Source: Planctomycetales bacterium 10988 (GTDB taxonomy: Bacteria > Planctomycetota > Planctomycetia > Pirellulales > Pb10988). Taken from it: DNA of 64,000 bases. Both the position numbers and the translations under genes were made by a program. Under the pieces are notes generated by a model, which had not been told where the DNA came from, ran no database searches, and saw only the letters and a program-made list of their open reading frames with translations. This document shows positions 8,723 through 64,000 of the stretch, piece by piece (the stretch's first letter is position 1; each line of letters begins with the position of its first letter). The stretch spans positions 3,996,709 through 4,060,708 of the forward strand of contig CP043547.1 of the NCBI GenBank assembly GCA_009664345.1, in the 5' to 3' direction.

Positions 8723-10306
8723 ATGAAGTTTGAACCGAATCAAACGGTAGGTATCGACCTAGGGACCACCTTTTCCGCCGTCGCCCATCTGAATGAACGT
8801 GGCGATCCGGTGCCGATTCCCAACGAAGATGGGGAAGAAGAAACGCCTAGTCTGGTGATTTTCGGCGAAAATGGACAGATCATTGTCGGTGCTTCGCGAG
8901 CCCGCGCGGCGATGGAAGACCCGGATCGCGTCGTCGAGCGGATCAAACGCGAAATGGGGAACGCCGACTTTCGTAAGGAGTATGAAGGCCAAGAGCTGAC
9001 GCCGGAATTTATCTCCGCGATGATCTTGAAGAAGGTCAAACAGGACGCCGAAAAGCGGATCGGTCCGATCGGCAATGCCGTGATTACCGTGCCTTATTAC
9101 TTCAATGATGCCCGTCGGAAGGCGACTCAGGATGCCGGTCGGATCGCCGGACTGAATGTCATCGACATCATCAATGAACCGACGGCCGCCACGTTGACTT
9201 ATGCTTGGCATCAAGGACAACTCGGCTATGACGGCAAAGGTTCCTCCAACGTAGCTGCCCGTACCGCCTTGGTTTATGACCTAGGGGGAGGGACCTTCGA
9301 TGTGACCTTGGTGAAATACACCCCGACGCACTTCGAAGTCTTGGCCACCGATGGCGATGTCCACTTGGGCGGGGTTGACTGGACCGATCGCTTGGTCGAT
9401 TTCATTAGTGATGAATTTCTAGAGCAAAATGGCTCCGACCCGCGGGAATCGCCGGCGACCTTGCAAGTTCTGCGAAGTGATTGTGATCAAGCCAAGATCG
9501 CCCTGTCGGATACCGAACAAGTCAACATTTCCTGCCGCCATGAAGGCAAGTCCATCCGGGTGCCTGTCGATCGCGAAGAGTTCGAGGAAATGACCGGGGA
9601 TTTGATTCAACGGACCCTCGACACCACCGAATTGGTTTTGGATATGGCTCGCATGGAGGCCGATCAAGTCGATGCGATTGTCTTAGTCGGGGGCTCGACC
9701 TTGATGCCGAAAGTCCGGCAAGCCCTGGAAGACCTGACTGGCGTCAAGCCTTATGATGGACTTTCCCCACATACCGCGGTTGCTCAAGGGGCCGCCATTC
9801 ACGCAGCGATTCTGGAAGCGAAATTCCGTGGCGATGATAGCCCGCTTTCCGCCCGAATCAAGAAGCGACTCGCCGGCGTGGTTCAAGAGAATGTCAACTC
9901 CCACGGCCTGGGCGTCATCATTCGCGATATCCGAAGTGGGAAGATGAAAAACTATGTGATGATCCCGCGGAATACCAAAATTCCCGTCGAGGTCAAACGT
10001 GTCTTTTCCACCACCGAACCGAATCAACGCCGTGTCAGCGTCCGGGTGGTCGAAGGAGATGCTCCCGATCCCGATGCCTGCTCGTTGATTGGGCAATGCT
10101 CGATTGAGGACCTTCCTTCCAAGCTCCCCAAGGGAGCCCCGATCGAAGTGAGTTATTCCTTTACCTCGGCTGGGCGGGTCGAAGTGAGTGCCAAAGACCG
10201 CACTGGTGGAAAAGAGGCCAAAACCCACATCGAACGCCAAGGTCTTCTGGAAGAAAATCAAGTCGATCGTTATGCTGATCTTGCGGATGGATACTCGGTT
10301 AGTTAA
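8723..10306 (+). CDS. Hsp70/DnaK-like chaperone lacking the C-terminal lid
   Basis: A 527-residue Hsp70 homologue. The nucleotide-binding domain is complete: GIDLGTT at residues 10-16, the phosphate-2 loop in LVYDLGGGTFDV, the V-L-V-G-G-S-T-L-M-P-K adenosine motif and I-N-E-P-T-A-A-T. The beta-sandwich substrate-binding domain follows, but the protein stops shortly after it, about 110 residues shorter than DnaK, so the helical lid is missing. The interdomain linker lacks the typical D-V-L-L-L-D-V run. The ATG at 8723 is used because an upstream extension carries no Hsp70 sequence. The next gene, 69 bp downstream, encodes a J-like domain protein, suggesting a dedicated pair. It is not the housekeeping DnaK. 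Confidence 0.9.
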   Translation: MKFEPNQTVGIDLGTTFSAVAHLNERGDPVPIPNEDGEEETPSLVIFGENGQIIVGASRARAAMEDPDRVVERIKREMGNADFRKEYEGQELTPEFISAMILKKVKQDAEKRIGPIGNAVITVPYYFNDARRKATQDAGRIAGLNVIDIINEPTAATLTYAWHQGQLGYDGKGSSNVAARTALVYDLGGGTFDVTLVKYTPTHFEVLATDGDVHLGGVDWTDRLVDFISDEFLEQNGSDPRESPATLQVLRSDCDQAKIALSDTEQVNISCRHEGKSIRVPVDREEFEEMTGDLIQRTLDTTELVLDMARMEADQVDAIVLVGGSTLMPKVRQALEDLTGVKPYDGLSPHTAVAQGAAIHAAILEAKFRGDDSPLSARIKKRLAGVVQENVNSHGLGVIIRDIRSGKMKNYVMIPRNTKIPVEVKRVFSTTEPNQRRVSVRVVEGDAPDPDACSLIGQCSIEDLPSKLPKGAPIEVSYSFTSAGRVEVSAKDRTGGKEAKTHIERQGLLEENQVDRYADLADGYSVS

Positions 10307-10375
10307 TGGTTCTCTTTGGGAACAATCCTTCCGTGAAATCCGTATCCCTTATTGCTAGTGAGAGATGAACCCCCG

Positions 10376-11389
10376 ATGGCCAACACGCTTGATGTTTACC
10401 GCGATTGGCTCAACATTCCCGACAGCGAACAGCGCCCGCTCAATCATTATCAGCTTCTGCGGTTACCGAAGTTTGAAGATGACACGGCGAAGATCCGGAA
10501 GCATTACCGGAAACTCAACGCTCATGTCCGGAAGTATTCTTCTGGGAAGTATGCCAAAGAATCCCAAAACCTGCTGAACGAGCTGGCCAAGTCGATGCTT
10601 TGCCTGACCGATGCCAAGCGGAAGAAGGATTACGATGAGCAGATGGGGCGGAAAGATGGCAAGTCCGTCCGACTCCGCACGCTGGAAGAATTGCTGGTCA
10701 ATCGTCATTTAATCGAAAGTCCGAAGCTTAAGCGTGCTCAGCACTTAGCGCGAGCTGTCGGGATTGAATTGCATGAGGCATTGATTCAGCAAAAGGCCCT
10801 CGATCCTAGTCGGATTGCCCAAAATTATGCTGAGTCCCTCGGGCTCTCTTATATCGACTTGGGTGATCTGGAACTGACCGAGCGTGTCCTTAAAAAAGTC
10901 CCCGCCTTTTTGGCCCGCCAGCATTCTTGTGTCCCTGTGTTGGTTGACGAAGGACAATTGGTCCTGGCCTCGCCCAAGGTTCTTCGCCCTGAAGTGGAAG
11001 ATCAATTTCGGATCAAGGCCGGAATGCCGGTTCGCTTGGCCATTTGCACGCGACAAAATGTCGACGACGTGATTGAGGATCACTACACCAAAGAGCAGGC
11101 TCAAAAGGAGATGGGGCTCAAAACGAGCATGATGCGGGCCATCCCGGCCGATGGCGAGGGAGATGCCGAGGGTTCCGCGAAGGACACTTTGACCCCTCAA
11201 CAGCGACGCGAGGCCTTCAAGCGACGTGCCCAAGTGGCCTTTGTGGCCTTTGCTGTGACGACCTTTGTTTGCATTGTGGTCCTCAATTTACCCTTCGAGT
11301 ACGGGGCTATGGGGTATGCCATGGGGGTCGGGGCTGGAATCGGCCTCGGTGTTTTGGCCTTTGGTCTCATGACCGTCCTTAAACTTTAA
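10376..11389 (+). CDS. HPD-less J-like / GspE-N domain membrane protein
   Basis: A 337-residue protein with three parts. Residues 22-90 follow the J-domain pattern (H-Y-Q-L-L-R-L-P, then I-R-K-H-Y-R-K-L-N and L-T-D-A-K-R-K-K-D-Y-D-E-Q) but the HPD tripeptide needed to stimulate Hsp70 ATPase is absent; A-H-V-R-K-Y stands in its place. Residues 100-240 resemble the N-terminal domain of GspE/PilB (E-E-L-L-V-N-R-H-L-I to the A-S-P-K-V-L segment). Two hydrophobic segments end the protein (about 287-305 and 312-334). It follows the Hsp70-like gene by 69 bp and is probably co-transcribed. A membrane-tethered adaptor for that Hsp70 is the simplest inference. Confidence 0.72.
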   Translation: MANTLDVYRDWLNIPDSEQRPLNHYQLLRLPKFEDDTAKIRKHYRKLNAHVRKYSSGKYAKESQNLLNELAKSMLCLTDAKRKKDYDEQMGRKDGKSVRLRTLEELLVNRHLIESPKLKRAQHLARAVGIELHEALIQQKALDPSRIAQNYAESLGLSYIDLGDLELTERVLKKVPAFLARQHSCVPVLVDEGQLVLASPKVLRPEVEDQFRIKAGMPVRLAICTRQNVDDVIEDHYTKEQAQKEMGLKTSMMRAIPADGEGDAEGSAKDTLTPQQRREAFKRRAQVAFVAFAVTTFVCIVVLNLPFEYGAMGYAMGVGAGIGLGVLAFGLMTVLKL

Positions 11390-11567
11390 CTTGCTTCGCT
11401 CTGGAAACCTGCAACTTACTTACGATTGAAGGGATTTGCCCAAGGCTAGAAGGTTTTGAAACGTCTGTTGTTGCTACAATTTAGGTACTCTCACGAATCT
11501 TCCATCGATCACAACCCGCTGAGCCTACCTGATTTACCTCCTCTCAACCCCTCTGGATGTCGCATCG

Positions 11568-12788
11568 ATGCGCATTTTGCTCACCAATCATTTACCTTTG
11601 TCCGCAGGCCGCTCTGGAGAGCAAATGGAATTGCTGGCCAAAGGGTTGCTGCGCGAAGGCCATCAGGTGAAATGCTTTGTGATCGATCGGCACGAATCTT
11701 CCAATGGTCCGCTCGGTTATCAGCTTGATCCTGGCCATCTGGAAAGTTTGTTCTTGGGCTATGATCCGCCGACGCTTTGCTCTTCTTCCTTTAGCTCGCA
11801 GCTTTTCTTTGATCTCAGTGATGAGCAGATTGCCCAATATCGGGGGATTTCTCGTCAGTCTCTCAATCGCTTGGTCGATGCGTTCGATCCACAAATCATT
11901 CATACGCAACATCTTTGGGTACAGGGTTCGTTGGTCTTGGAGACAGGTATCCCCTATCTCGTCTCCGCACAACCGGAAGACCTGAGCGGTACCGAATCCG
12001 ATCCCCGTTTTCGACAATGGGCGGATCAAGGGGCCGAAAATGCCGGGCGGATCATCGCCAGCGAGCAGTATCTTGCTTCCGCGGTTCGCCAGCGGTTCTC
12101 GGTCGAACCTTTCCGGGTTGCCTCGATTCCGTTGGGGATTGATCTCAATCGCTTTGCCGAGGCCGATTCCCGAGACAAGACGCGGCAAGAAATGGGACTT
12201 GGAGCGGACGCCCTTCTGCTGCTGATTCATCCCGAACGCATCTATGCGGAGGACCTCTTGGTCTGGGGAGAAGTCGCCGCTTTTCTGCAAGAAGAACTTC
12301 CGCAAGTCCGTATGTTGTTGGCACTTCCGGAAAAGAATATGGCGGAAGCGACCGAGTTGCTGGACCCTTGGCAACAGACCTTGCAGTGTATTTCCGAAGA
12401 TGTTTTTGAGCTGGCGGAGCTTTATAGTTGCGCTGATCTTCTGCTCGTTTCCGAAGCCGCTCATCCGCTGAGTCTCCAGGCATTGAAGGCAGTCGCCGCC
12501 GGGGCTTGGCCGCTTGTCGATTCCTTAGTGCCCTGGCTGGAGTCTTTCCCGGAAGGATTTTCCACAAAGGTGGAACTTCCGCATGATTCCACTGGCAAAG
12601 ACCCGAAGCGGATCGGAAGAGCCTGGGTGAATCAAATCATCGTCCTGCAAAAAACGCTGGCCGAACAACCCTATCAAGAGCGAAAGCAGGCGGCTCACAA
12701 GGCCTTGCTAGAAAACCATAGCCTAGAGAATTGGATCAATCGCCACTGCTATCTCTATCAAGAAATTCTCGACGAACGCTTTGGTTAA
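11568..12788 (+). CDS. GT-B fold glycosyltransferase (group 1/GT4-like)
   Basis: A 406-residue protein with the layout of retaining GT-B glycosyltransferases. The N-terminus MRILLTNHLPLSAGRSGEQM fits the acceptor-side Rossmann fold. I-I-H-T-Q-H-L-W is the mid-domain motif, I-P-L-G-I-D-L-N-R-F marks the domain hinge, and the C-terminal S-C-A-D-L-L-L-V-S-E-A-A-H-P-L-S-L-Q-A-L-K-A segment corresponds to the donor-binding E-x7-E region, although the second Glu of that motif is not obvious. No membrane segment is seen. The sugar and acceptor are not readable. It is 178 bp downstream of the J-like gene, so co-transcription is possible but not shown. Confidence 0.78.
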   Translation: MRILLTNHLPLSAGRSGEQMELLAKGLLREGHQVKCFVIDRHESSNGPLGYQLDPGHLESLFLGYDPPTLCSSSFSSQLFFDLSDEQIAQYRGISRQSLNRLVDAFDPQIIHTQHLWVQGSLVLETGIPYLVSAQPEDLSGTESDPRFRQWADQGAENAGRIIASEQYLASAVRQRFSVEPFRVASIPLGIDLNRFAEADSRDKTRQEMGLGADALLLLIHPERIYAEDLLVWGEVAAFLQEELPQVRMLLALPEKNMAEATELLDPWQQTLQCISEDVFELAELYSCADLLLVSEAAHPLSLQALKAVAAGAWPLVDSLVPWLESFPEGFSTKVELPHDSTGKDPKRIGRAWVNQIIVLQKTLAEQPYQERKQAAHKALLENHSLENWINRHCYLYQEILDERFG

Positions 12789-59113: not shown

Positions 59114-60507
59114 TACTACAGTTGTAGATTCTTTTTTAGTACCATTCGCTTCTTCCTCGGTAAGGAGAAAGGGCGATGAATCATGAAGGGATCGAAGTGT
59201 CCACGGCGGCGATGGAGGCGGAACTGGAGCGGGTCGGAAGCTTGCTGCGGCCGCTGTTTGCCCGGGGCGAAGCCTGGCAGCGTGCCCGGCGGTATCTGCG
59301 GGGGCTGACCTCGGAAGTCCGGCGGAAGAACTCCTTGCAATTGGCCAAACAGCTCGGCGATGCCACGCCGTATGGGATTCAACATTTGCTGGGTCGGGCC
59401 TCGTGGTCGGCCGATGCCTTGCCGGACAGTTTGCGGAGCTACGCTTGCGAAGCCCTTGCCGATTCGCAGGCGGTTTTGATCTTGGACGAGACCGGGTTTC
59501 TCAAGAAGGGGACCAAAAGTGCCGGGGTCGCTCGGAGGTACTCGGGCACCGCCGGACGCCTCGAGAACTGCCAGATCGGCGTTTTCTTGGCGTATGCAAG
59601 TTCGCAAGGCTGTGCCTTGATCGACCGCGAACTCTATCTGCCGAAGGCGTGGATCGAGGACCGCCCGCGGTGTCGGGAAGCGGGAATCCCCGAGAATCGC
59701 GGCTTTTCCACCAAGCTCGAACGGGCTCAGGCGATGCTGGCCCGAGCGATCCAAGCCGGCGTTCCCTTCGCGTGGGTCACCGGCGATGAGGTTTACGGGG
59801 CCTCGACGCTTCGTCGTTTTTTGGAGGAGCACGGCAAGAACTACGTCCTGGCGGTGAGCCGAACGCTCAAGCTGAGCCGAGGCTTTTCGCAGCGGACGGC
59901 GGAACGATTGGCCGACGAAATCCCTGCCTCGCGTTGGCGAACGATCGACCTCGGCCCCGGCAGCAAAGGCGACCGGCGATCCCGCTTTGCCCGCTTGGAG
60001 ATCAATCACGACCTGCAACCGAAGCGAAATCGCTGGCTCCTCGTGCGGGAAAGTTTGGAGGAAGACCGAGCCCGCTCTTACTACGTGGCCGGGGCTCCGA
60101 GCCGCACGAGACTGCGGAAACTCGCCGAACTCGCCAGGAGCCGCTGGCGAGTCGAGCAAGCCTTCGAGGAGGCGAAAGGGGAAGTCGGCTTGGATGAATA
60201 CGAGGTGCGAAGTTTCGAGGGGTGGCAGCGTCACGTCACCCTGAGCCTGTTGGCCCATGCAATGCTGATCGTGCTGCCGACTCGCCCCGCGAGCCGCACG
60301 AGGCCGCGAAAAAAACGGCGGATTGATTCGCCTGAGTACTCCCGAGTTGAAACGCTTGCTTCTGAGCTATTTGAACCACGGCGAGCTGCTCGCCTCGGTG
60401 TTTCAAGCGAGCCTCTGGCGCTGCAGCCATCAGCACTATGCCCGTCAGTCCCACCACCGCTCCAGACAACCAAAACCACCCCCGGCGAACGATCTACAAC
60501 TGTAGTT
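59114..60507 (+). mobile_element. IS701-family insertion sequence
   Basis: A 1394 bp element. The terminal inverted repeats share ACTACAGTTGTAGAT (59115-59129 and its inverse 60492-60506). The flanks are CTAG on both sides (59110-59113 and 60508-60511), a 4 bp target duplication of the YTAR type known for IS701. It inserted exactly after the helicase stop codon, and the TAG of that stop is part of the duplicated target. Only one transposase gene is carried, and it is frameshifted. Intact ends and duplication point to a fairly recent insertion. Confidence 0.93.
59176..60505 (+). pseudogene. IS701-family DDE transposase with frameshift at an A7 tract
   Basis: The first frame codes 377 residues with the catalytic triad visible as Asp104 (L-D-E-T-G-F), Asp204 (V-T-G-D-E-V-Y-G) and Glu327 (W-R-V-E-Q-A-F). 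At 60309-60315 there is a run of seven A. The first frame then reads a non-family tail and runs out of the IS into flanking DNA. The frame that restores family sequence, with S-T-P-E-L-K-R-L-L-L then S-L-W-R-C-S-H-Q-H-Y-A-R-Q, ends inside the right inverted repeat at 60503-60505. One A fewer would join them, giving about 440 residues, the normal length. This is either an inactivating indel or a slippage signal. The ATG at 59176 follows AAGGAGAAAGGG. Confidence 0.88.
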
Positions 60508-60511
60508 CTAG
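60508..60511. repeat. Target-site duplication CTAG, right
   Basis: Right copy of the 4 bp duplication flanking the IS. Confidence 0.88.
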
Positions 60512-60750
60512 GAAGGAATAAGATAGTGCGGATATATTTTTTATATGCATTTAATTAAATGGATACTTCAATTTAAGCGTGTAGTCATTGGCAAAAAGTC
60601 AAAGTTTTTTGAAAGATTTCGGCAATGGACAGTCTGGAATTGATTATGAAACATGTAGAGAATTGACTGTGGTCGAGAATCATTTCTTGGGTCTGACAAA
60701 GACTCGACTCTATGAAGTGGTCTGTTTATCTAGATATTGGGAAAATTGAG

Positions 60751-61545
60751 ATGAGTTTACAACCTGTATACCCTAAAGAATTAACGGAAGCCGCCTGGAA
60801 GAGTAACGTGAGCACCGCCTACAAGATGGCCAAAGGAAAGGCCGGCATCAGTGAGGCTCTGCGACAGTGCGAAAAGGCGTTTAAAAGTATCGATTGGGCC
60901 CTCACCGATGCGAAAATGCAATGTAAAGACTGTATGTATTCCCCCGACTTTGATGAGAAGAAAATCGCGGCACTGAAGTATCATTCCGGCGTGATTCAGA
61001 AGAAGCTGGTAAAAGCAATTAAAGACGTACAAATCGCGGCGGAGAAAGCCATTCAAATTTGTAAAGGGAGTAAACTCATTCCCAAATCGACCACGGCCTA
61101 TCTGACGAAGGTCAAAAAAGAAGCGATCGACTTTGAAGAAACGTGTGGGGGTACGCTCGTTCGGCAGATATCGGAGTGGTATAACGAAGTTAAAAAGCGA
61201 CAACTTAAAAACATTGGGATGGCGGCTCAAAAGCTTATTAACTACGCAACCAACTTTGAGACAAACCTAAACAAAATGTTAAAAGCAGTTGAGAAAGAAA
61301 ACGAGGAGAAGGCAAAAATAAGTCACTTCACAAGTTTTCGTACGGAACATATCCGTGGGATAGGAACGGCCCTTCCTTTCTTTAGGAAGGATAACGACTT
61401 CAAGCCGGCGCTCTCTTTTTGGAAAACCGCATCGAGCGATGGTTATAATCCAAAAGAATCAAATGAAATCGATGGAAAAGCACGACAGATGACGATCGAG
61501 GTCAAGAAACTTCTTCAGATCATGAAATCGAAACAGTTAATTTAG
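60751..61545 (+). CDS. Unknown-family protein, tandem paralogue 1 of 3
   Basis: A 264-residue protein I do not recognise. It is rich in Lys, Ala and Glu and predicted helical, with no signal or membrane segment, so probably cytosolic. It shares with the two downstream genes the blocks A-Y-K-M-A-K-G-K-A-G (23-32), C-M-Y (61-63, preceded by C-K-D), I-P-K-S-T (110-114) and near the C-terminus F-R-T-E-H-I-R-G with L-P-F-F-R-K-D-N-D-F-K-P. The start ATG at 60751 aligns with the starts of the other two copies; an upstream frame to 60712 is not conserved. A terminator-like hairpin follows. No function is proposed from sequence. Confidence 0.85.
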   Translation: MSLQPVYPKELTEAAWKSNVSTAYKMAKGKAGISEALRQCEKAFKSIDWALTDAKMQCKDCMYSPDFDEKKIAALKYHSGVIQKKLVKAIKDVQIAAEKAIQICKGSKLIPKSTTAYLTKVKKEAIDFEETCGGTLVRQISEWYNEVKKRQLKNIGMAAQKLINYATNFETNLNKMLKAVEKENEEKAKISHFTSFRTEHIRGIGTALPFFRKDNDFKPALSFWKTASSDGYNPKESNEIDGKARQMTIEVKKLLQIMKSKQLI

Positions 61546-61961
61546 CAATAAATAAGCAAACAAAGCTCTATTTTCAATCTAGCCAGCTCTCGGAATTTCT
61601 CTATAGAGGATTTTCGGTGCTGGCTTTTGTTATTGTTAAGTCTGACGAATGCCTTCCTTTCTTCTCTCAATCACTTTGAACGCTTCCATCAAAGTCATAT
61701 CAAACAAAGAACTCCTTCTCTATTCTAAAAATTTTCATTTCTCTGAAAGATCGCTGCAATCTAGAGATCGCCTTCTTTTCTGTAGGCCGTTCTTTGATTT
61801 CCCCGAAATGAGGGGAGTTAAAAACCTTCCTGAAAAAAAGTTGAAAAAAAATTCTCCCACCTGTTACCATTTCAGAATCCTTTCCGTTACTAGATCCTAC
61901 AGGCATCGTTATGATGCGAATTTTATCTCTCTATTTTCTCCTTACGAAAAGGAACTGAAAC
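61546..61961. other. Intergenic region between paralogues 1 and 2
   Basis: About 415 bp without a gene. After the terminator-like hairpin at 61581-61628 the remaining 330 bp should hold the promoter of paralogue 2. Small frames here have no start signals. Confidence 0.55.
61581..61628 (+). terminator. Terminator-like hairpin after paralogue 1
   Basis: AGCCAGC (61581-61587) pairs with GCTGGCT (61619-61625), followed by TTT. The loop is long (31 nt) and itself partly paired, so strength is uncertain. Confidence 0.6.
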
Positions 61962-62756
61962 ATGCCCGTAAAACCTACTTACGACAAACTCTTGACGGCC
62001 GCTGACTGGAAAAGCAACATGGGGAACGCCTATAAAATGGCCAAAGGGAAGGCCGGCTTGAGTTCATCGCTACGGACCTGTGAAGCAGGATTCGAGCGGC
62101 TCGAATGGAATAAAATGGATGAAGTAGAAATGACAAAAGATTGTATGTATGAATTTGAATTTGATGCAGCAAAGCAGGAAGCACTCAATTACCATGCTCG
62201 GTTTGTTAAAAATGGCTATGTAAAAATTGTCAAAAATGTTTCCGCAGCTTGTGACGTTGCAAGTAAGGAAATTGCGGACAGTAAAGTGATTCCGAAATCT
62301 ACCGGGGTTCATGTAGCAAAAATTAAAAAAGAGGCTGTACGGTTTATGAAAGAATTGAATGAACTCAACAAAAGTATCGTCAAAGCCTTTGATAATCGTC
62401 GAAATAGCCGCATCAAGGGGTTAAACATGGCCAAGAAAAAGCTTGTTGAAACAACTGCCAAATTTGATGCTGCCGTTAAGAAAATGGTAAAGGAAGCCGC
62501 GGGAAAACACCCTGACGAACAAGCCCAACTTACCGTCTTTGATAACTTCCGCCGGGAGAATGTTCGCGGGATTGCGACCACTTTGCCATTCTTCAAGAAA
62601 GATAAAGACTTTGTCCCTTCGCATACGTTCTTCAAAAAAGCTGCCAGCGATGGCTATCAACCCAAAAAGGCAAAAGAGGTTGCCGGGAAAGCAAGGGAGC
62701 TGATGAGTGAAAATAAAAAGCTTCAATCGGTCATGAAAGCGAAGAAGCTTGTCTAA
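61962..62756 (+). CDS. Unknown-family protein, tandem paralogue 2 of 3
   Basis: A 264-residue paralogue of exactly the same length as copy 1. A-Y-K-M-A-K-G-K-A-G is identical at 23-32. The C-x-x-C pair before Met-Tyr is reduced to a single Cys (T-K-D-C-M-Y), I-P-K-S-T is kept, and the C-terminal block reads F-R-R-E-N-V-R-G-I-A-T-T-L-P-F-F-K-K-D-K-D-F. Between blocks the sequence has diverged strongly, so the copies are old rather than recent duplications. The ATG at 61962 has AAGGAAC at good spacing. It has its own leader and a strong terminator, so it is a separate transcription unit. Function unknown. Confidence 0.87.
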   Translation: MPVKPTYDKLLTAADWKSNMGNAYKMAKGKAGLSSSLRTCEAGFERLEWNKMDEVEMTKDCMYEFEFDAAKQEALNYHARFVKNGYVKIVKNVSAACDVASKEIADSKVIPKSTGVHVAKIKKEAVRFMKELNELNKSIVKAFDNRRNSRIKGLNMAKKKLVETTAKFDAAVKKMVKEAAGKHPDEQAQLTVFDNFRRENVRGIATTLPFFKKDKDFVPSHTFFKKAASDGYQPKKAKEVAGKARELMSENKKLQSVMKAKKLV

Positions 62757-63189
62757 TGAAGAGTTCCTTCATTTCTGACAATTAGAAAAGCCCTCCGCAA
62801 ATTTATTGCCGGGGGCTTTTTTACTTCATATCTTTTCAATTTTTAACGGAGGAGTGTTTAAAAGACTTGCTTTTTCATATCAATATTTCATACAAGCGAT
62901 TTTTGACACTTCGTTGCATTTTAAATAGAGAAACGTTTTCCTCATGCTCTATTGAAGAAAATTGCCAGCGATTACCTGATGTATTCGAGGTGTTGATTCT
63001 TCTTCATATTCTCAAAAAAACTTGTAATTACGTGTTATATTTGTCATGGTAGGCTTAGTCCGAGAGGATTGCCCAGGAATATTTCCGAAGAGAAGTACCG
63101 TTCCTGGTGTGAAGTGGTGTTCTTTGAGAAGGATGTTTTTTGCGAGATGCAAATTCTTTATTTTAATTTCTATTGAAAGGAAATTTTCG
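62757..63189. other. Intergenic region between paralogues 2 and 3
   Basis: About 430 bp. After the terminator the rest is A/T-rich with no supported gene and should hold the promoter of paralogue 3. An open frame upstream of the paralogue 3 start (from 63046) is not conserved in the other copies. Confidence 0.55.
62786..62823 (+). terminator. Intrinsic terminator after paralogue 2
   Basis: AAAAGCCC pairs with GGGCTTTT (62813-62820) with additional inner GC pairs, followed by TT. It lies about 30 bp past the stop codon. Confidence 0.85.
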
Positions 63190-63978
63190 ATGCCGATGCC
63201 ACCCGAGTATCCGAAGTTGTTGACGGCCGCCGATTGGAAAGACAATATGGGGCTCGCTTACAAAATGGCAAAAGGAAAAGCAGGGCTAAGCAAATCGCTT
63301 CGACAGGCGGAACAATCGTACAATAAAGTTGATTGGAAAATGTTTCAGCCGATGGATCAATGTAAAACTTGCATGTATGCAGCGGATTATGAAGCGAAAA
63401 AGAAAGAAGCGATCACCTATCATACGGTTGCGGTCGGCACGCTTTATAAAATCGTAGGTTTGATCGACGGCCCTTGTAAGATTGCCATCAAGGAAATCAA
63501 AGAAAGTAGATTGATTCCCAAATCCACCCGAGAGCATGTGGCGAAGATTCAAGCCGAAGTGAAGAAATTTCAAAAGCGGCTAGAACGATTCCTGATTCAA
63601 ATTGATAAGGATTATACAAACTACGCGGCATCAAGATTGAAAAGTCTCAATGTCGCAGGTGGAATTCTAAAATCCTATGTCTCTAAGTTTGATGCGGCTC
63701 TCAAAAAGATGGTCAAGGAGGCAAGCAAGGAAAAGGAAGAAGCTAAAAAGATCAGTGTGTATGATAGCTTTCGTACAGAATATATCCGTGGCTTTGCGAC
63801 GTCCCTCCCTTTCTTTCGAAAAGATAGTGACTTCAAGCCCGCGGTATCTTGGTGGAAGACCGCCGCTCAGGATAGCGGCAATCCGAAGTCAGGCGCCGAG
63901 TTGGACAAGAAAGCGAAAGAACTGGCGAATCAGTTTAAAAAGCTGAAGGTCCTTGTTGATACCAAGTTGAAAGCTTAG
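63190..63978 (+). CDS. Unknown-family protein, tandem paralogue 3 of 3
   Basis: A 262-residue paralogue. The start reads Y-P-K-L-L-T-A-A-D-W-K-D-N-M, A-Y-K-M-A-K-G-K-A-G is identical at 23-32, C-K-T-C-M-Y keeps both cysteines, I-P-K-S-T is kept, and the C-terminal block is F-R-T-E-Y-I-R-G-F-A-T-S-L-P-F-F-R-K-D-S-D-F-K-P, closer to copy 1 than to copy 2. The ATG at 63190 has AAAGGAAA at good spacing; an upstream frame is not conserved. It ends 22 bp before the window end, so further copies to the right are possible. Function unknown; predicted helical and cytosolic. Confidence 0.87.
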   Translation: MPMPPEYPKLLTAADWKDNMGLAYKMAKGKAGLSKSLRQAEQSYNKVDWKMFQPMDQCKTCMYAADYEAKKKEAITYHTVAVGTLYKIVGLIDGPCKIAIKEIKESRLIPKSTREHVAKIQAEVKKFQKRLERFLIQIDKDYTNYAASRLKSLNVAGGILKSYVSKFDAALKKMVKEASKEKEEAKKISVYDSFRTEYIRGFATSLPFFRKDSDFKPAVSWWKTAAQDSGNPKSGAELDKKAKELANQFKKLKVLVDTKLKA

Positions 63979-64000
63979 AGGGTTTTTCGTCAATGACGAT

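Follow-up and report, generated by a model that had tools for sequence, protein, structure and literature searches.

Three genes in a row on the plus strand at the right end of the window, by which we mean the whole 64,000-nucleotide stretch of Planctomycetales bacterium 10988 analysed here, raise the question of which protein family they encode and in what process that family takes part. A sequence-only reading had described them as tandem paralogues of an unrecognised family, and the open reading frames (Table 1), together with pairwise protein identities of 43–48%, bear this description out. Sequence alignment revealed that every shared block listed in that reading is present in all three proteins: AYKMAKGKAG at residues 23–32, (C)xxCMY, IPKST, and FRxExxRG...LPFFxKDxDF. 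For copy 1, a start at the in-frame ATG at 60712 would lengthen the protein by 13 aa, which are not conserved, and the alignment likewise gave no support to a longer ORF from 63046 for copy 3.

Table 1. Features of the array in the window and of the dispersed fourth copy
Feature	Position	Strand	Remarks
Transposase gene, DDE_5	59176..60558	+	E 1e-45; directly upstream of copy 1; context only, outside the family
Copy 1 (P0001)	60751..61545	+	264 aa ORF
Terminator-like hairpin and U-run, 3' of copy 1	61581..61625	+	-23.6 kcal/mol, z -4.2
Copy 2 (P0002)	61962..62756	+	264 aa ORF
Terminator-like hairpin and U-run, 3' of copy 2	62783..62823	+	-22.3 kcal/mol, z -4.5
Copy 3 (P0003)	63190..63978	+	262 aa ORF
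Fourth copy (P0004)	G000:C1:4976775-4977572		266 aa; ~0.9 Mb from the array

The gaps between the array copies are AT-rich, measure 416 and 433 bp (about 420 bp had been stated), and contain no gene. In addition to the two hairpins in Table 1, which agree with the terminators already proposed after copies 1 and 2, a hairpin with a U-run follows copy 3 just past the window edge (z -3.4), and the fourth copy has its own (z -6.5). A terminator-like hairpin behind each copy supports the proposal of separate transcription units. Comparison of the upstream regions found no sequence common to the copies, and a promoter scan was uninformative, with 6 predicted promoters against 5.4 expected. The IS noted beside the array is represented by the DDE_5 transposase gene. 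To the right, outside the window, the array is followed by hisC and hisD on the minus strand (gene names by eye), and the fourth copy is dispersed within the single 6.65-Mb contig of the host genome (G000), where its neighbours, likewise named by eye, are a sensor-kinase-like and a rimO-like gene; the array is complete at three copies, and the suggestion that it might be longer was not upheld. Over positions 60000–64000, the array genes have a G+C content of 43–45% and the gaps one of 35–37%, both below the 51% of the whole window.

Synonymous divergence between the three copies was saturated (pS 0.78–0.84) while pN was 0.37–0.39, which indicates old duplications and purifying selection on the copies. 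Together with the predicted structure described below, these values agree with the conserved fold under selection that had been postulated. Gene dosage, one of two explanations offered for the array, is unlikely because the copies are so diverged, whereas the other, differential use, or a diversified specificity, fits better.

Searches of Pfam, NCBIfam, and PADLOC revealed no family match for the window proteins, and PHROG gave only weak, single, and inconsistent matches of one paralogue to unnamed or fibrous families, so that the family is indeed unrecognised and is undescribed in every library checked. Weak Pfam matches to Death_3, HBL enterotoxin, REC1, and DUF2139 (E 0.003–0.07) differed by paralogue and were set aside as chance helical similarity. 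The same Pfam and NCBIfam scans found no toxin or enzyme motif, Pfam found no SH2 domain in the window proteins, and a sequence search of the PDB gave no match. Phages, plasmids, and viral contigs yielded no relatives at the sensitivity used; nor did public contigs (queries A2 and the SH2 protein described below) or viral contigs (queries P0002 and A2) give a confirmed relative, in collections that may omit the host and near genomes.

AlphaFold, supplied with the three window sequences, modelled copy 1 as all helical (pLDDT 89.7, pTM 0.75), with helices at residues 64–105 and 112–167 and the IPKST turn between them; copy 3 was modelled less confidently (pLDDT 76, pTM 0.54), with a near-identical succession of helices. 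The window proteins are thus predicted to be all-helical, with a pair of very long helices that meet at the conserved IPKST turn. Fold comparison, which the earlier reading had named as a check, gave no match: the best PDB hit, 5nl6, shares long antiparallel helices of the spectrin-like repeat type, at E 0.17 and a TM-score of about 0.3, which is no real match, and the best hit among viral structure models had E 0.16. A pore-forming toxin was considered and rejected, the fold matches to ClyA and NheA reaching only E 3–5.

A search of 58 related genomes returned weak matches in two genomes of another family, and none of the relatives returned came from other genomes of the host's own family. 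These remote matches share with the window copies a common skeleton of YP(K/D)..L....W, KxG(L/I)...L...E, and, ~60–80 residues later, S-K-L-(I/V)-P-K. Iteration with an N-terminal profile added 8 secure members from six further genomes (three in G051 and one each in G042, G321, G015, G213, and G503), as well as a borderline tandem pair in G683 (E about 9e-4). In these searches the family came to light only in some planctomycetes. For a non-circular test, a profile was built from six foreign N-termini only (the three of G051 and those of G042, G321, and G015). Against this profile, the four host copies scored 1e-9 to 4e-15 and the G503 and G213 members, which were not in it, 2e-12 and 4e-6, while none of 5,136 decoy ORFs did better than E 2.2. 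Judged by this test, homology of the family members is secure, and the full-length alignment weakly suggests that the short members may have the C-terminal part in common as well. Profile matches in G244 and G348 were dropped as unrelated or opposite-strand frames, and a G666 match covering only a C-terminal stretch (E 9e-4) was left uncounted. The members are basic (pI mostly 9–10) and lysine-rich. The distant G503 member (L072:1414-2298, +) has a signal-peptide-like N-terminus, unlike all others, and appears to be Sec-exported, since its sole in-frame start leaves no alternative.

Gene neighbourhoods in two genomes pointed to the type VI secretion system (T6SS). The G321 member is the last gene in the order TssF-TssG-TssH-member on one strand (TssG Pfam E 2e-106; TssH is a ClpB-type AAA protein; TssF and TssH were identified by eye and domain), and a G051 member lies 3' of an IcmF/TssM-like gene (E 8.5e-12) on the same strand. 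The chance probability of two independent positions in T6SS clusters is about 0.003–0.03, assuming 1–2% of genes. Because of these positions, we tested the sheath gene across genomes, using VipB/TssC (PF05943) as the marker. VipB was present in 8/8 carriers (G000, G015, G042, G051, G321, G213, G503, and G683; 7/7 when restricted to secure carriers) compared with 36/146 non-carriers (25/84 in one part and 11/62 in the other), giving a Fisher P of 2.7e-5 with G683 included and kinship ignored. The control genomes were picked by handle number, the genomes are related, and the statistics take no account of kinship. Within the order, the values were 6/6 carriers versus 24/83 non-carriers (P 0.001, kinship ignored), and with the order restricted to genomes of 5 Mb or more they were 6/6 versus 21/53 (P 0.007, kinship ignored). 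Inside one family, VipB was found in 2/2 carriers versus 0/5 non-carriers. A divergent second type of sheath (<250 bits) also occurs in the carriers, with a stronger association (P 3e-4), a post hoc observation. The tie between the family and the T6SS is statistical and positional.

The host genome has T6SS clusters of its own, with TssB, TssC, TssF, TssG, TssH, TssK, TssL, ImpE, Hcp, and VgrG. Two members (L030, L032) lie beside T6SS genes, and the others, including the host's four copies, are not near any. A role as a T6SS core component was rejected, since many VipB-positive genomes have no member and none turned up in those T6SS regions of non-carriers that we examined. The members are mostly dispersed and patchy, outnumber T6SS clusters, and are missing from many T6SS genomes, as expected of cargo rather than of a core part. 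No fusion to Hcp, VgrG, or PAAR was found, and no immunity gene lies between the copies.

The G015 member (L031:104-3028, -) is a 975-aa protein that carries the N-terminal module, four SH2 repeats (Pfam SH2 E 9e-20, with the W[LM]LR[FY] arginine kept), and a separate C-terminal domain. This last domain matched nothing in Pfam, and a possible resemblance to plant IQM proteins was set aside. To our knowledge, SH2 domains are very rare in bacteria and have been reported almost only from Legionellales. Their position behind the N-terminal module in G015 hints at eukaryotic targets, for example in protists.

Taken together, these results describe an undescribed planctomycete family tied to the T6SS, whose members are, as our leading though still tentative reading, putative cargo or co-secreted adaptors. 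The array copies and the fourth gene are diversified paralogues of ~265 aa, basic, lysine-rich, predicted to be all-helical, and devoid of a signal peptide, with a probable order of an N-terminal module (YP..L....W), two long helices meeting at the IPKST turn, and a C-terminal module. We infer that each copy would be expressed from its own transcription unit and then loaded and injected by the T6SS, presumably the host's own in the case of its four copies. Several paralogues may provide several specificities, which could be the reason for the paralogy, and the SH2-bearing relative may reach eukaryotic targets such as a protist. The main doubts about cargo are the small number of secure carriers (seven), the orphan loci, and the signal-like N-terminus in G503. 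That these helical proteins, as standalone cargo or adaptors present several times per genome, form a new planctomycete T6SS delivery module and cargo family together with a fused version whose phosphotyrosine-reading SH2 repeats reach eukaryotic prey or hosts is a more speculative step, which we regard as doubtful though conceivable.

The family might instead be T6SS-linked without being injected, acting in the cytosol as a chaperone for loading, an adaptor, or an accessory protein for particular effectors, with the G015 protein a chaperone-effector fusion. Positions after TssH and after the IcmF-related gene, the presence of one to several copies per genome, and the absence of both a toxin motif and an immunity gene would suit such a role; yet most members have no adjacent effector or VgrG gene, the usual site of specific loading factors, and the signal-like start of the G503 member is at odds with it, so that we consider it rather unlikely. 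A somewhat stronger competitor, although still improbable, is a lineage-specific family independent of the T6SS, whose helical proteins could, for instance, be cytoskeletal or associate with membranes or nucleic acids, and whose association with VipB would reflect genome size and shared ancestry. It would account for the orphan loci of most members, the weakening of the association to P 0.007 upon size matching, the basic, lysine-rich helical proteins, and the few carriers, but not readily for the within-family co-occurrence (2/2 versus 0/5) or for two independent T6SS-cluster positions (P about 0.003–0.03). Movement or amplification of the genes by the neighbouring transposase is highly improbable: the transposase gene directly 5' of copy 1 and the AT-rich block suggest it, but phages, plasmids, and viral contigs had no relatives at the sensitivity used, the ORFs examined around the fourth copy included no obvious transposase, and the synonymous saturation makes the copies far older than a recent insertion.

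Cargo or a co-secreted adaptor would have parallels in described systems. As outlined in PMC12135965 and the papers cited there, MIX, RIX, PIX, FIX, and WHIX likewise combine a conserved N-terminal module with differing continuations, a likeness of working only, and RIX is reported from effectors as well as from secreted adaptors. In contrast to these, compared by description only, most members here are full-length helical proteins with no variable toxic domains. Tce1 of Pseudomonas aeruginosa (PMC13323088) is similarly a standalone cargo of the Hcp tube with no VgrG/PAAR fusion, an established T6SS type, but is a putative cysteine protease, whereas the window proteins show no enzyme motif. 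The G015 relative resembles the Legionella SH2 effectors (PMC6208348) in having SH2 repeats that keep the arginine of WLLR[FY]; the window proteins differ in having no SH2 domain, and the Legionella system is the Dot/Icm type IV system. A literature search found no paper describing T6SS cargo in Planctomycetota, and the family, if the reading is true, would possibly be the earliest class of T6SS cargo to be defined for this phylum. A family that tracks the sheath gene across the phylum, and one of whose members bears SH2 repeats, provides named candidates for T6SS delivery and its recipients, and its profile can be used to find further members.

Some further arrangements were observed. In G051, a member and a second uncharacterised, apparently helical protein stand in tandem (L015:371-1096 and 1221-2525, -), and the borderline G683 pair lies at L080, about 9589-11866 (+); tandem arrangement may be recurrent in the family. 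hisD adjoins the G213 member (L083:1449-3724) in another arrangement than in the host, where the array lies beside hisC/hisD (L005:10764-13289, -), and the hisD neighbourhood in both genomes is either a coincidence or a common insertion site. The host genome also encodes a 1517-aa protein (L046:12547-17097, -) that joins VipA, VipB, and ImpA_N domains in a single polypeptide, apparently a TssB-TssC-TssA fusion of the second, divergent sheath type.
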